Positions 6,624 through 12,252 of a DNA stretch of 64,000 bases are shown here, one piece after another. Location: contig NZ_CP119572.1 of the NCBI RefSeq assembly GCF_029278605.1, positions 992,001 to 1,056,000 of the forward strand. Reading direction: 5' to 3'. Within the stretch, counting starts at the first letter, position 1; each line of letters begins with the position of its first letter. The stretch is from Cupriavidus sp. WKF15 (GTDB lineage: Bacteria > Pseudomonadota > Gammaproteobacteria > Burkholderiales > Burkholderiaceae). The notes below the pieces were generated by a model. The model was not told where the DNA came from and made no database searches. It saw only the letters and a program-made list of their open reading frames with translations. Both the position numbers and the translations under genes were made by a program.

Positions 6624-7691
6624 ATGAAGATCGCAGTCCTGCCGGGTGACGGCATCGGTCCGGAAATCGTTGCGGAGGCCGTCAAGGTCCTGAACGCGCT
6701 CGACGAGAAGTTCGAGATGGAAACCGCCCCGGTGGGCGGTGCCGGCTACGAGGCCGAAGGCCATCCGCTGCCGGAAAACACGCTGAAGCTCGCCAAGGAG
6801 GCCGACGCCATCCTGTTCGGCGCCGTGGGCGACTGGAAGTACGATAGCCTCGAGCGCGCGCTGCGCCCGGAGCAGGCCATCCTGGGCCTGCGCAAGCACC
6901 TGCAGCTGTTCGCCAACTTCCGCCCGGCCATCTGCTACCCGGAACTGACCGGCGCATCGAGCCTGAAGCCGGAACTGGTGGCGGGCCTCGACATCCTGAT
7001 CGTGCGCGAGCTGAACGGCGATATCTACTTCGGCCAGCCGCGCGGCGTGCGCGAGGCGCCGGACGGCCTGTTCAAGGGCGCCCGCGAAGGCTTCGACACC
7101 ATGCGCTACAGCGAGCCGGAAATCCGCCGCATCGCGCACGTGGCGTTCCAGGCCGCGGCCAAGCGCGGCAAGAAGCTGTGCAGCGTGGACAAGGCCAACG
7201 TGCTGGAGACCTTCCAGTTCTGGAAGGACATCATGATCGACGTCAGCAAGGAGTATCCGGACGTCGAGCTGTCGCACATGTATGTCGACAACGCCGCCAT
7301 GCAGCTGGTCAAGGCGCCCAAGAGCTTCGACGTGATCGTCACCGGCAATATGTTCGGCGACATCCTGTCGGACGAGGCCGCCATGCTGACCGGCTCGATC
7401 GGCATGCTGCCGTCGGCGTCGCTCGATGCGAACAACAAGGGCCTGTATGAGCCGTCGCACGGCTCGGCGCCGGACATCGCCGGCAAGGGCGTGGCCAATC
7501 CGCTGGCGACGATCCTGTCGGCCGCCATGATGCTGCGGTACTCGCTGAACAGGGCCGAGCAGGCAGACCGCATCGAGAATGCCGTCAAGAAGGTGCTGGC
7601 CCAGGGCTATCGCACCGGCGACATCCTGACTCCGGGCTGCAAGCAGGTCGGCACGCGTGAAATGGGCGAGGCCGTGCTGGCCGCTCTGTAA
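6624..7691 (+). CDS. leuB: 3-isopropylmalate dehydrogenase LeuB
   Basis: Catalyses NAD-dependent oxidation and decarboxylation of 3-isopropylmalate, the third step of leucine synthesis. It has 355 residues and the usual family features: [10 protein letters not shown] at the start, [14 protein letters not shown], the catalytic lysine in [10 protein letters not shown], the metal-binding aspartates in [12 protein letters not shown], and the NAD site around [28 protein letters not shown] site precedes the ATG. It is the last leu gene; a strong intrinsic terminator follows 12 bp after the stop. Confidence 0.97.
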
Positions 7692-7703
7692 GTCACAATC
7701 CGG

Positions 7704-7730
7704 AAAAGGCGCTGCGCGGCAGCGCCTTTT
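7704..7730 (+). terminator. Rho-independent terminator of the leu operon
   Basis: A perfect 12-bp inverted repeat (arms 7704-7715 and 7719-7730) with a three-base loop ends in TTTT and continues CTTTTATTTG. This is a strong intrinsic terminator. It separates leuCDB transcription from the asd unit, so asd needs its own promoter in the roughly 60 bp that follow. Confidence 0.92.
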
Positions 7731-7792
7731 CTTTTATTTGTCCCCGATTTTCCACGCTGCGGCGGCGCCGCAAAATCGTGTAGACTCTGCAG

Positions 7793-7924
7793 ATGGCCCG
7801 ATTTTCCCAGTCCACCCTGACTGCTGTTGCTGCCCTGACCGCTACCCGCGGCCCGGTCGGCACGATTTCGCTCGGCCAGACCGCAACGACGATTAAAACG
7901 ATTACCAAAACCGCGATCGCCTAG
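7793..7924 (+). CDS. Candidate Thr/Ile/Lys-rich attenuation leader peptide upstream of asd
   Basis: A 43-residue reading frame from the ATG at 7793 to the TAG at 7922-7924, ending 90 bp before asd. Eleven of 43 residues are threonine, and the last fourteen read TATTIKTITKTAIA: six Thr, three Ile, two Lys, three Ala. These are amino acids made from the product of asd (or, for Ala, neutral filler). The concentration just before the stop is the layout of known leader peptides such as thrL. The ATG has no Shine-Dalgarno sequence and lies 6 bp after a TAGACT hexamer (7781-7786), so it could be translated as a leaderless message. The peptide itself is presumably not the functional product. Seen directly: the frame and composition. 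Inferred: regulation. Confidence 0.6.
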   Translation: MARFSQSTLTAVAALTATRGPVGTISLGQTATTIKTITKTAIA

Positions 7925-7938
7925 ATCCGTTCGTCGTG

Positions 7939-7990
7939 CCTGCCCGTCTTCCCCGCGCAGCCACGCCGGGCGAGGAAAATGGCGGGGAAG
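7939..7990 (+). promoter_or_regulatory. Mutually exclusive RNA stems between the leader frame and asd
   Basis: Two pairings overlap and cannot form together as simple nested hairpins. CCTGCCCG (7939-7946) can pair with 7967-7975 (8 bp, one bulged G). CTTCCCCGC (7948-7956) can pair perfectly with GCGGGGAAG (7982-7990). The arrangement resembles the alternative stems of an attenuator. However, the second stem is followed by TAAAAATC, not a U-run, so a classical intrinsic terminator is not evident; the effect might be on Rho access or on translation of asd. Confidence 0.4.
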
Positions 7991-8014
7991 TAAAAATCAC
8001 ATCCGAGGTAAATC

Positions 8015-9151
8015 ATGATTGTAGGTCTCGTCGGTTGGCGGGGAATGGTCGGCAGCGTCCTGATGCAGCGCATGCAGGAAGAGCGTGATTTCGACCATAT
8101 CGAGCCCGTCTTCTTCAGCACGTCCAACGCCGGCGGCAAGGCGCCCGCCATGGCCAAGAACGAAACCACGCTCAAGGATGCCAACGACATCGAGGCACTG
8201 AAGAAGTGCGACGTGGTGCTGACCGCCCAGGGCGGCGACTACACCAATGAAGTCTTCCCGAAGCTGCGCGCGGCTGGCTGGAAGGGCTACTGGATCGACG
8301 CGGCTTCGTCGCTGCGCATGAAGGACGATGCCATCATCGTGCTGGATCCGGTCAACCAGGGCGTGATCAAGGATGCCCTGTCCAAGGGCGTGAAGAATTT
8401 CATCGGCGGCAACTGCACGGTCAGCTGCATGCTGATGGGCCTGGGTGGCCTGTTCGAGGCTGACCTGGTCGAGTGGATGACCTCGATGACCTACCAGGCC
8501 GCCTCGGGCGGCGGCGCGCAGCACATGCGCGAGCTGCTGACGCAGTTCGGCACGCTGAACGCGTCGGTCAAGCCGCTGCTGGACAATCCGGCCTCGGCCA
8601 TCCTGGAAATCGACCGCCAGATCCTGGCGACCCAGCACGGCCTGTCCGCCGAAGAAACCAAGCAGTTCGGCGTGCCGCTGGCCGGCAACCTGATTCCCTG
8701 GATCGACAAGGACCTGGGCAACGGCCAGTCGCGCGAAGAATGGAAGGGCGGCGCCGAGACCAACAAGATCCTGGGCCGCGGCGAGGGCTTCCTGGGCGCG
8801 ACCGGCGCCACGCCGATCGCCGTGGACGGCCTGTGCGTGCGTATTGGCGCGATGCGCTGCCATTCGCAAGCGCTGACCATCAAGCTGCGCAAGGATGTGC
8901 CGCTGGACGAGATCGAAGGCATGCTCGCCGCCCACAACCCGTGGGCCAAGGTTGTGCCGAACACCCGCGAGGCCAGCATGACCGACCTGACTCCGGCTGC
9001 CGTGACCGGTACGCTGAGCATTCCTGTCGGTCGCCTGCGCAAGATGCAGATGGGCGGCGAGTACCTGTCCGCGTTCACCGTGGGTGACCAGCTGCTGTGG
9101 GGCGCGGCCGAGCCGCTGCGCCGTATGCTGCGCATTTTGATCGAGTCCTGA
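8015..9151 (+). CDS. asd: Aspartate-semialdehyde dehydrogenase
   Basis: Reduces aspartyl phosphate to aspartate semialdehyde, the branch point to lysine/diaminopimelate, threonine, isoleucine and methionine. It has 378 residues, matching the long proteobacterial Asd class. The NADP loop is [14 protein letters not shown] (residues 3-16). The catalytic cysteine is Cys134 in [16 protein letters not shown], and the phrase [11 protein letters not shown] is also diagnostic. A CCGAGG ribosome site lies 6 bp before the ATG. It is transcribed apart from the leu genes and has the unusual leader described above. Confidence 0.97.
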
Positions 9152-9426: not shown

Positions 9427-12252
9427 GTGAGTGTGAGTCAACATCGCCGGAAAGATGCGCCAACCGTCCGTCAGCGCTGGTCAACGCTGGCCGTCACGGC
9501 TATCGGCCTGCTGCTCGCGCAGCCGGCTGCTTACGCCGCGGGGTTCGGGCAATTGCGGGTACAGTCGAATCTGGGGCAGCCGCTGCAGGCCGAGATCGAC
9601 ATCAGCGGGGTGAGTGCAGAAGAGGCAGCCGGGCTCAGCGTCAAGCTGGCCTCCCCGGCGGCGTATGCCCGCGCGGGGCTGACCTATGCGCCGGCGGTGA
9701 GCAGCCTGCGGCTCGAGATCGAGCGCCGCCCCAATGGCAGCTACGTGGCCAAGGTCCGCTCGAGCCAGCCGATCAGCGAGCCGTTCGTCGACATCCTGGT
9801 CGACATGAGCTGGTCCAGCGGCAAGGTATCCCGCGCCTATACCTTCCTGCTTGACCCCGCCGGGGCCAAGCCTTCCAACCAGACTTTCTCGCCGACGACG
9901 GTGGTCCAGGCCGCGACGCCGGACGCATCGCCGGCTGCCGCACCCGCTCCCTCGCCGTTGCCGGAGCCTGCGCCGGCCGTCGCGCAGGGCACGCAGCCGG
10001 CTGCCCAGGCGCCGGCAAGGCCCGCGCGGCAGCCCGCCGCCCGCCGCGCGCAGGCAGCCCAGCCTGCCGCCGAGGGCGAGGCAGCGGCTAGCGGTGCCTA
10101 TACGGTCAAGCGTGGCGATACGCTGTCGTCGATCGCCGGCGATGCCGTGATGGATCAGGAGGGCGTGTCGCTGGACCAGATGCTGGTCGCGCTCTACCGG
10201 AACAATCCCAATGCCTTCATTGGCGGCAACATCAATCGCCTGAAATCGGGCGCGGTGCTGCAGGTGCCTTCGCGACAGCAGGCGCAGTCCGTCGCGCCCA
10301 AGACGGCCCGCCGCGAAGTGGTCGCGCGTACGCAGGGGTTTGATGCGTACCGCAGCCGTCTGGCAGGTGCCGCCGCGGCCAAGTCGGTCGAGCCGGACAG
10401 CGGCCGCCAGCAGTCGGGGAATGTCACGGCGCGCGTGCAGGATCAGGCGGTGCCGGCCGCAGGCCCGCAGAACGAGCTCAAGCTGAGCAAGGCGGAGCGT
10501 GCGGGACAGGCCAACGCCGCGGCACAGGCCGAAGCCAGCGTCGCCCGCGAGCGGCAACTGAAGGAAGCCGAGGCGCGCCTGGCACAGCTCGAAAAGAACG
10601 TCGGCGATATGCAGAAGCTGATCGAGCTGAAGAACAGCGAGATCGCCAAGCTGACGCAGGCCAACCAGGCTGCGCTGGCCGACAAGGACAAGGCCGAGAA
10701 GGCAGCTGCCGACAAGGCCGCGAAGACCGAAGCCAAGGCGCCGACCGTGGTCGCGGCCGAGCCGCCGAAGGCGGACGCGCCGGCTGAAGCCGCGCGGGTC
10801 GCGCCAGCCGCGCCAGTGGCGCAGGCTGCTGCAGCCAGCGCCGCGGAAGCTCCGGCTGCGGTCCCGGCAGCCGCAGCGGCGGCCGCCGCTGTGCCTGGCG
10901 CGGCAGCCAGCGCCGCGCAGGCTGCGGCCCCGGCATCGGCCCCGGCCCCGGCCGTCAAGCGTCCGCCGGTGGTGGTGCAGGCGGCGCCCGCGCCCGAGCC
11001 ATCATTCCTCGACGGGCTGCTGGCCAACCCCATGCTTCTGCCGGGCGGGGGCCTGCTGGTCGCGCTGCTGGGTGGTTACGTGATCTACCGCCGGCGCCAG
11101 CAGCAGAAGTCGGCCGACGGCGGTGCCTTTGGCGACAGCGTCCTGTCTCAGGAAAGCACCGTGATGGCGGGCGCCAATTCACTGTTCGGCGCCGCTGGCG
11201 GCCAGAGCGTGGATACCTCGCAGCACAGCGTGTTCGGTGCGGACTTCCGCATCGGCAACAATATGCCGGAAGCCAGCGAGGTCGACCCGATCGCCGAGGC
11301 GGAGGTCTATATCGCCTACGGGCGTGACGTGCAGGCGGAAGAAATCCTGCGTGAAGCGCTCGAGAAGGATCCGGAGCAGCAGCCGATCAGGCTCAAGCTC
11401 CTGGAGATTTACAGTAATCGTCAGGATGTGGAAGGTTTCCGCGTGATTGCAGAAGAGATGTTCGCCCAGACCGGCGGACAAGGCGCGGAATGGCTCAAGG
11501 CCGCGGAAATGGGGCGCGCACTCGATGCGGGCAATGCGTTGTTCCTGTCTGTGACGCCGGATACCAGTGGTGGCCCCGAAACGGCCACGGCGCCGGGCGA
11601 TCAGTGGCGCACCCAGGATCCGTCGCACGACCCGGCCGCGCCGCGCCAGGCCGCGCTCGCCGATCTGGCCCTGCCGCTCGACGCCTTCCCGGCGCCGGCA
11701 GCCGGTGACCCGATCGTCGCGCCGGAATCGGCTGCGCTGGTATTCGGCGACACCGCTATTCACGCGGACGCGCAGCTTGAGCCGGCCGCGAAGTTCGATG
11801 ATGCGTTGGACCTGACCCTGCCGGTCACCGATGGCGACGCGCTGGCGGACGTGCCGCGCCTGGACACGCCGACGCGTTCGCGCGGGCTGGATTTCGACAT
11901 GTCGGGCATCTCGCTCGACCTCAATGCCGGATCCGCGGCCGAGTCCTCGGTGCCGCTGCCGTCGCCGACCATGATCCGCGACGGCAAGTTGCCCGAGCCG
12001 ATCGACCTGGCCGGCATCGGCGTCAGCGACAACGACCGGGGTGCCGACACCACGCCGGGCGTCTCGCCGAGCACGCTGTCGACGGACGGCATGGATGGCG
12101 GGCGCGACATGCAGATCAAGCTTGACCTGGCGCGCGCCTACATCGAAATCGGCGACAAGGAAGGCGCGCGCGAACTGCTGCAGGAGGTTGTGGAGCAGTC
12201 GCAGGACGCCCTGCAGGCGGAGGCTCGTTCGCTGCTGCTAGAGGTAGCCTGA
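9427..12252 (+). CDS. fimV: FimV/HubP-family peptidoglycan-binding polar protein
   Basis: A 941-residue inner-membrane protein of the FimV/HubP family, known in relatives for polar organisation, type IV pilus assembly and twitching. It has an N-terminal signal or anchor ending near AAYAAGFGQ. A conserved FimV N-terminal domain follows (QLRVQSNLGQPLQAEI), then a LysM domain at about residues 223-282 (YTVKRGDTLSSIAG) and a coiled coil at about 350-420. After an Ala/Pro-rich linker there is a transmembrane helix at about 535-553, an acidic cytoplasmic region, and the C-terminal FimV domain at about 893-941 (KLDLARAYIEIGDKEGAREL). The start is a GTG at 9427; a second in-frame GTG lies 6 bp later. 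Confidence 0.9.
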   Translation: MSVSQHRRKDAPTVRQRWSTLAVTAIGLLLAQPAAYAAGFGQLRVQSNLGQPLQAEIDISGVSAEEAAGLSVKLASPAAYARAGLTYAPAVSSLRLEIERRPNGSYVAKVRSSQPISEPFVDILVDMSWSSGKVSRAYTFLLDPAGAKPSNQTFSPTTVVQAATPDASPAAAPAPSPLPEPAPAVAQGTQPAAQAPARPARQPAARRAQAAQPAAEGEAAASGAYTVKRGDTLSSIAGDAVMDQEGVSLDQMLVALYRNNPNAFIGGNINRLKSGAVLQVPSRQQAQSVAPKTARREVVARTQGFDAYRSRLAGAAAAKSVEPDSGRQQSGNVTARVQDQAVPAAGPQNELKLSKAERAGQANAAAQAEASVARERQLKEAEARLAQLEKNVGDMQKLIELKNSEIAKLTQANQAALADKDKAEKAAADKAAKTEAKAPTVVAAEPPKADAPAEAARVAPAAPVAQAAAASAAEAPAAVPAAAAAAAAVPGAAASAAQAAAPASAPAPAVKRPPVVVQAAPAPEPSFLDGLLANPMLLPGGGLLVALLGGYVIYRRRQQQKSADGGAFGDSVLSQESTVMAGANSLFGAAGGQSVDTSQHSVFGADFRIGNNMPEASEVDPIAEAEVYIAYGRDVQAEEILREALEKDPEQQPIRLKLLEIYSNRQDVEGFRVIAEEMFAQTGGQGAEWLKAAEMGRALDAGNALFLSVTPDTSGGPETATAPGDQWRTQDPSHDPAAPRQAALADLALPLDAFPAPAAGDPIVAPESAALVFGDTAIHADAQLEPAAKFDDALDLTLPVTDGDALADVPRLDTPTRSRGLDFDMSGISLDLNAGSAAESSVPLPSPTMIRDGKLPEPIDLAGIGVSDNDRGADTTPGVSPSTLSTDGMDGGRDMQIKLDLARAYIEIGDKEGARELLQEVVEQSQDALQAEARSLLLEVA

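Follow-up and report, generated by a model that had tools for sequence, protein, structure and literature searches.

Threonine, isoleucine and lysine all derive from the product of aspartate-semialdehyde dehydrogenase (Asd). Enterobacterial thrL and ilvL are leader open reading frames in which runs of product-amino-acid codons precede the stop codon and competing helices follow it. In translational attenuators of the erm type, the position of the leader ribosome decides whether a ribosome-binding site further downstream is exposed or masked. SecM carries a C-terminal arrest sequence, and there the tail of a complete protein serves as the sensor governing the gene that follows. A structured RNA, the asd RNA motif (RF01732), is positioned upstream of asd. 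In their accessible parts, PMC2864571 covers this asd RNA motif of Lactobacillales and PMC2965389 mentions ermC. The accessible part of PMC1262725 describes an actinobacterial LEU element upstream of leuA, in which a leader codon run is combined with a proposed pseudoknot and Shine-Dalgarno (SD) pairing, and on that basis it is the nearest published case we found with both a leader run and SD pairing. An asd leader peptide in Burkholderiales was not found described in the open full-text literature (a scope outside which most subscription papers fall), nor in the accessible parts of PMC2965389, PMC1262725, PMC5688073 and PMC2864571.

Here we analysed the asd locus of Cupriavidus sp. WKF15 within a 64,000-nucleotide stretch of its genome (hereafter the window; NZ_CP119572.1, positions 992,001 to 1,056,000), where a short frame ends in a tail of six Thr, three Ile and two Lys ahead of asd. 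From sequence comparison we infer that this frame would exert ribosome-mediated attenuation of asd by sensing charged Thr, Ile and Lys tRNAs, a reading we hold to be highly likely. Like the thr and ilv attenuators, the locus places a run of pathway-product codons just before the leader stop, with RNA helices downstream that may compete; it differs in its target (asd, at the branch point), in its Lys codons, in a predicted leaderless start and, for the Burkholderiaceae type, in having no intrinsic terminator. Thr_leader and the other Rfam leader families do not match at the element. As in erm-type systems, ribosome position on a leader would control a downstream ribosome-binding site, but the signal would here be the charging of the tRNAs read at Thr/Ile/Lys codons and not a drug. 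In the LeuB-fused regions, the tail of an entire enzyme would report to the following gene, as in SecM, although the tail composition points to codon hunger and not to nascent-chain arrest. RF01732 is likewise a structured RNA upstream of asd, but belongs to another phylum and has no match here. The LEU element, going by the accessible part of PMC1262725, shares the codon-run leader and the proposed pseudoknot and SD pairing; it concerns leucine and another phylum, and its SD partner is the codon run itself, whereas here, in Comamonadaceae, the strand after the leader stop complements the SD.

Layout of the leuB-asd locus

The gene order in the window is leuB, a terminator-like hairpin, the leader frame and asd (Table 1), which agrees exactly with the original observation of a 43-codon frame of Thr/Ile/Lys-rich composition between the leu terminator and asd. 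The hairpin is terminator-like and would separate leu transcription from the asd leader, although 0.9 sites of this pattern are expected by chance in the region; it was the only site found when the region around the leader was scanned for terminators. The 90 nt between the leader stop and asd are C-rich and untranslated. The window's own genome contains a single asd match, and the nearest named relatives of the window Asd are from Cupriavidus, with identity of up to 98%. A FimV/HubP-type polar landmark protein is encoded 3' of asd (window 9427-12252).

Table 1 Features of the leuB-asd region, in window coordinates
Feature	Position	Strand	Basis or detail
leuB, upstream gene	6624..7691	+	NCBIfam TIGR00169, E 1.1e-146
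Terminator-like hairpin after leuB (stem)	7702..7732	+	Pattern match, 14 pairs
-10-like box TAGACT, 6 nt before leader ATG	7781..7786	+	Hexamer match
Leader ORF, 43 codons plus stop	7793..7924	+	ATG 7793, TAG 7922-7924
Thr/Ile/Lys codon run TATTIKTITKTAIA	7880..7921	+	Composition and conservation
Candidate segment 1, ACGACGA (Thr-Thr-Ile codons)	7886..7892	+	Complementary to segment 2
Candidate segment 2, TCGTCGT	7931..7937	+	Complementary to segment 1
S1 5' arm CGTGCCTGC	7935..7943	+	Paired in alignment of 29 sequences
S1 3' arm GCAGCCACG	7957..7965	+	Paired in alignment of 29 sequences
S2 5' arm CTTCCCCGC, within S1 loop	7948..7956	+	Helix of at least 8 bp in 71/72
S2 3' arm GCGGGGAAG, without clear U-tract after	7982..7990	+	Pairs with S2 5' arm
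asd Shine-Dalgarno-like GAGGT	8005..8009	+	Sequence
asd, aspartate-semialdehyde dehydrogenase	8015..9151	+	NCBIfam TIGR01745, E 6.4e-190

Removing identical regions and L192 left 141 asd-upstream regions, 103 with free-standing leaders and 38 in which the run is fused to LeuB, and the distance from leader stop to asd in these ranged from 69 to 150 nt. A -10-like hexamer, mostly TAGACT, TACAAT or TATATT, precedes an in-frame start in 103/103 distinct free-standing leaders, a figure favoured by our picking start codons for having such a box. The start codon is ATG in 101 of them, and the spacing from box to start is 6-10 nt in 102, the other being 12 nt before a TTG (L296). As background, 40 of 1,031 ATGs (3.9%) in 124 regions without a leader have a box at 6-10 nt. 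A convincing -35 was not found upstream of the leader, and a generic promoter scan found no promoter at the window leader because it also requires a -35. With a -10-like box lying just before the start, the transcript probably begins at or next to the leader ATG (~7793) and the mRNA would probably be leaderless.

Distribution of the codon run among relatives

Regions were counted as carriers when at least six of the last 14 codons before the stop encoded Thr, Ile or Lys. All 56 fetched Cupriavidus asd-upstream regions carry the run (55/55 parsed by script, and L134 read by eye), these coming from a search of 60 genomes of the genus in which the window's own genome was not refetched, G011 gave no match, and asd was broken or cut in G047 and G048. 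In the other genera of the family, 28/39 parsed regions are carriers (40 chosen and fetched), while for the Comamonadaceae-type family the counts were 27/30 and 13/20 (40/50), and for an order-wide draw 8/59 (60 fetched). Named loci carry the run in 42/80 cases (9 Cupriavidus and 33/71 others), and all sets together give 190/314 parsed loci, with duplicates of some genomes included. L168, whose score of 6 reflects the natural LeuB end, was not counted; L138 and L141 (scores 5 and 4) fall below the threshold, L170 and L270 lie outside the parsed set, and the Comamonadaceae group excludes L192.

Named carriers belong to Cupriavidus, Burkholderia, Paraburkholderia, Trinickia, Variovorax, Xenophilus, Ramlibacter, Polaromonas, Rhodoferax, Hylemonella, Caldimonas and Piscinibacter. 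The run is absent at the sampled named loci of Noviherbaspirillum, Massilia, Duganella, Collimonas, Glaciimonas, Pandoraea, Oxalobacter and Thiomonas, and at one Caldimonas locus (L059). A conserved short frame with Thr/Ile/Lys codons despite drifting DNA had been named as support for such control, and a frame of this kind is present in every Cupriavidus region and in most sampled Burkholderia-type and Comamonadaceae-type regions. Two observations run counter to the attenuation reading: locus L251 keeps the RNA element without the run, and among the 15 non-Cupriavidus regions with the closest Asd (L212-L226) L212 alone has the run.

A divergent Thr/Ile/Lys leader occurs in 3/3 genomes of a further family, f13 (L321, L322, L323), and 92-93 nt separate its stop from the anchor motif in asd. 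Inspection by eye shows that this leader is followed by complementary stretches that cross and carry compensatory changes (UCGUCCC/GGGACGA and UGGCCCC/GGGGCCA; CUCCGC/GCGGAG and CCCCGC/GCGGGG). On a weakly resolved Asd tree, Cupriavidus Asd groups with Oxalobacteraceae and a long-branched Burkholderia group. In genomes of genus g133 (e.g. G298), Asd is no more than 68-70% identical to that of the window, yet the leader and the element are kept; asd may have been displaced behind a leader that stayed in place, or the branch may be a fast one.

RNA elements between the leader and asd

Comparison across relatives brings out the codon run, the promoter box and an asd-proximal element, which takes two forms. 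In the Comamonadaceae type, the post-stop strand CCCGGUUCGUC pairs with GACGAGCCGGG (the 2:3 helix), with 92.4% of cells paired in 61 distinct sequences versus 25-58% when the helix is slid, and eight cells changed on both sides, a number reached by 16/500 shuffles. A second helix (3:3'), CCCGGC with the same GCCGGG, is 85.9% paired and excludes the first, with no covariation beyond shuffles (122/500). Going by these alignments, the complementarities after the run in Comamonadaceae appear mutually exclusive. Between the helices lies GCGCCCU or a similar stretch, complementary to the asd SD AGGGCG. Across 68 distinct pairs, the SD duplex has -12.11 kcal/mol with its own partner versus -11.50 kcal/mol with swapped partners, and 13/5000 permutations were as low, these permutations ignoring relatedness. 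The L228 fold is far stronger than its shuffles (z -4.43). A terminator-like site was found between leader stop and asd in 4/69 regions of this type (shuffles 11/345). Many Comamonadaceae regions (L067, L297, L306, L314 and others) show, by eye, an A-run/T-run inverted repeat before the asd SD.

In the Burkholderiaceae type, to which the window belongs, stem S1 (CGUG-x-CYGC with GCRG-x-CACG) has 97.4% of its cells paired in 29 sequences. One S1 pair is C-G in 18 sequences and U-A in 11, and since all 11 are from Cupriavidus this change looks like a single lineage change. Stem S2 forms at least 8 bp in all but one of the 72 regions examined; in the remaining one, L296, TATTCTAAG with CTTAGAATA folds in the corresponding stretch, a replacement of the whole stem. 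The genome behind L296 (G283, of the family) measures 1.2 Mb; its leader region is AT-rich, the Thr/Ile/Lys run is kept and the GC stem has become an AT-rich one. Because the 5' arm of S2 lies inside the S1 loop, S1 and S2 could compete or form a pseudoknot. The last Thr-Ile codons and the bases after the stop form a helix with 91.9% of cells paired and without covariation. The 1:2 pairing of the candidate segments in Table 1, considered as a selected feature, did no better than a synonymous-codon control. Thermodynamic folding alone was noisy: the window element is not unusual and folds no better than its shuffles (z -0.54), and RNAalifold consensus structures on two group alignments were weak.

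Putting these elements together, we infer the following sequence of translation, stalling, direction of control and output. A promoter with the -10-like box of Table 1 would yield a leaderless mRNA, on which a ribosome translating the leader, or the end of LeuB, meets the run of Thr/Ile/Lys codons. If one charged tRNA is scarce, the ribosome would stall in the run, the post-stop RNA would fold into the 2:3 helix and asd would stay on; if all charged tRNAs are ample, the ribosome at the stop would cover the post-stop strand and an alternative fold would lower asd expression.

The output step may differ between the two types. In Comamonadaceae it is most likely initiation of asd translation, through SD pairing. 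SD sequestration as a general rule was rejected, with no swap signal in the Burkholderiaceae group (4325/5000 permutations as low, 41 distinct pairs) and a predicted SD accessibility that rises, not falls, as the ribosome reaches the stop. Placing L051 and L060 (Variovorax) outside this group left the outcome of the SD test and of the composition analysis the same. Classical intrinsic termination is unlikely as the output: a terminator-like site after the leader was found in 0/71 Burkholderiaceae-type regions (shuffles 7/355), and the S2 stem is followed by one to five T in 8 nt, with five in only 4/71. As far as these scans can tell, the window and its Burkholderiaceae relatives are not classical intrinsic-terminator attenuators.

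The same sensor could instead have another output, in which leader translation governs Rho-dependent termination in the C-rich post-stop stretch and control is exerted at transcription. The lack of terminator-like sites, the lack of support for SD pairing in the Burkholderiaceae group and the 90 untranslated, C-rich nucleotides before asd would all suit such an output, but the conserved helix set and the SD complementarity of Comamonadaceae suggest that folding matters, and we treat Rho as a tentative, rather unlikely alternative.

Conservation of the codons and fusion to LeuB

In 57 distinct Burkholderiaceae-type tails, 83% of the final 12 codons encode Thr, Ile or Lys (Thr 36%, Ile 28%, Lys 19%), or 84% in 56 tails once the two Variovorax rows leave the group; Leu and Val are rare in these codons and Met is absent. 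The last eight codons of 50 distinct Comamonadaceae-type tails are 43% Thr, 22% Lys and 17% Ile, and these tails usually end in Gly. As a chance level, 44 of 8,151 stops preceded by 12 open codons score at least 7 Thr/Ile/Lys on both strands of the 80 named loci, a total close to the count of leaders at these loci (42), the comparison being one of totals. Asd-upstream regions not classed as leaders score at most 6, mostly 1-4. Of the single-base differences that separate near-identical tails, 22/31 and 15/22 are synonymous or within Thr/Ile/Lys (20/29 and 14/21 when changes in Ala/Leu codons are excluded), where a simple mutation model expects ~42-43%. The remainder of the leader peptide drifts, its N-terminal part varying in length and sequence: distinct Cupriavidus leaders have 38 to 50 codons from the promoter-proximal start, and the tail varies much less. 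Judged across relatives, the conserved feature is the codon identity of the run, in terms of the amino acids encoded.

The run forms the C-terminal tail of LeuB itself in 38 of the 141 distinct regions, among them regions from Variovorax, Ramlibacter and Caldimonas, as in the Variovorax tail MGDAVVAAITKKTITG, whereas the window LeuB ends in MGEAVLAAL without a run. The stop of the fused form lies 73-126 nt before asd, and most fused regions were included in the element alignment. On an Asd tree of 83 rows, built by a quick method and with many open forks, well-supported branches force at least three changes of the fused label, so that free and fused forms probably interconverted more than once. 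Since the run persists as part of LeuB, it is the codons before the RNA element that appear conserved and not the peptide, and this argues for the identity of the codons translated directly before the element as the decisive factor. The leader-peptide attenuation first proposed keeps its conserved Thr/Ile/Lys frame, but a separate peptide proves needless. For Variovorax, Ramlibacter, Caldimonas and relatives, we lean towards the view that ribosomes finishing LeuB sample Thr/Ile/Lys tRNA charging and thereby set asd expression. In L251 (1399-1441) the element is kept right after leuB, whose product ends in ..VIKALK without a Thr/Ile/Lys tail; a decayed or intermediate state is possible.

These patterns also bear on whether the frame could instead be the gene of a small protein that has a role of its own. 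Its conservation across genera would fit, but a variable N-terminal part beside a kept run, changes that are largely synonymous or within Thr/Ile/Lys, and the appending of the run to LeuB all speak against it. Nor did the four leaders tested give any Pfam match or any above-cut-off NCBIfam match (one fell far below the cut-off; NF041705, E 0.15), and we consider a small protein very improbable.

Specificity of the element for asd

A covariance model of the Burkholderiaceae element matched 65/120 genomes of the family, once each, and all 65 matches end within 30 nt of asd (coordinates compared by eye). Neither a second copy nor another operon with the element was found in these 120 genomes under strict filters with at most 38 candidates scored per genome, settings with which weak second copies could be missed. 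The model found nothing in 32 run-less loci nor in L192, and matched L296 only weakly. The Comamonadaceae model matched 3/150 genomes of the order, each belonging to that family and each with the match ahead of asd; among 39 run-less loci (examined together with L192, whose run is divergent) it found the element in one, L251, and a second match in L213 (E 0.77) is at chance level. A narrow pattern, ACNATHAARACNATH, occurs at four places in the window's own genome, one of them at asd.

Searched against Rfam, the window gave only a tRNA elsewhere at gathering scores and no leader family, and 14 loci searched up to E 5 showed no leader family at the element. Two chance-level matches to unrelated sRNA families, P10 (L001) and Acido-Lenti-1 (L058), overlap the leader or element, and a sub-threshold Leu_leader match in L001 lies away from the element.

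A leader peptide acting in trans has been reported (peTrpL of S. meliloti, in the accessible part of PMC7298713), and the leader RNA or peptide here might by analogy act mainly in trans, as an sRNA or a peptide regulator. The element is nevertheless asd-proximal in every matched genome and where LeuB carries the run there is no leader frame apart from leuB, so we give such a role very little credence. That the frame is a chance occurrence or a functionless relic would fit the unexceptional fold of the window, but its conservation across families and the gap in Thr/Ile/Lys score between leaders and other regions reduce this probability to almost nothing.

Implications for aspartate-family control

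If the attenuation reading is true, control of the aspartate-family branch point would read three end products on one short codon run across a large bacterial group, and the gene so controlled is present in a single copy in the window's genome. The Burkholderiaceae type, with its lack of a terminator, is well placed to show by what means leaders of this kind work. The alternation between free leader and LeuB tail is a natural experiment, indicating that codons and not the peptide are conserved and that a gene already present can take up an attenuator; if true for the fused form, translation of the leucine pathway would control entry to the aspartate-family branch point by way of an attenuator that is part of an enzyme. 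Such control may also be relevant to amino-acid production in Cupriavidus.
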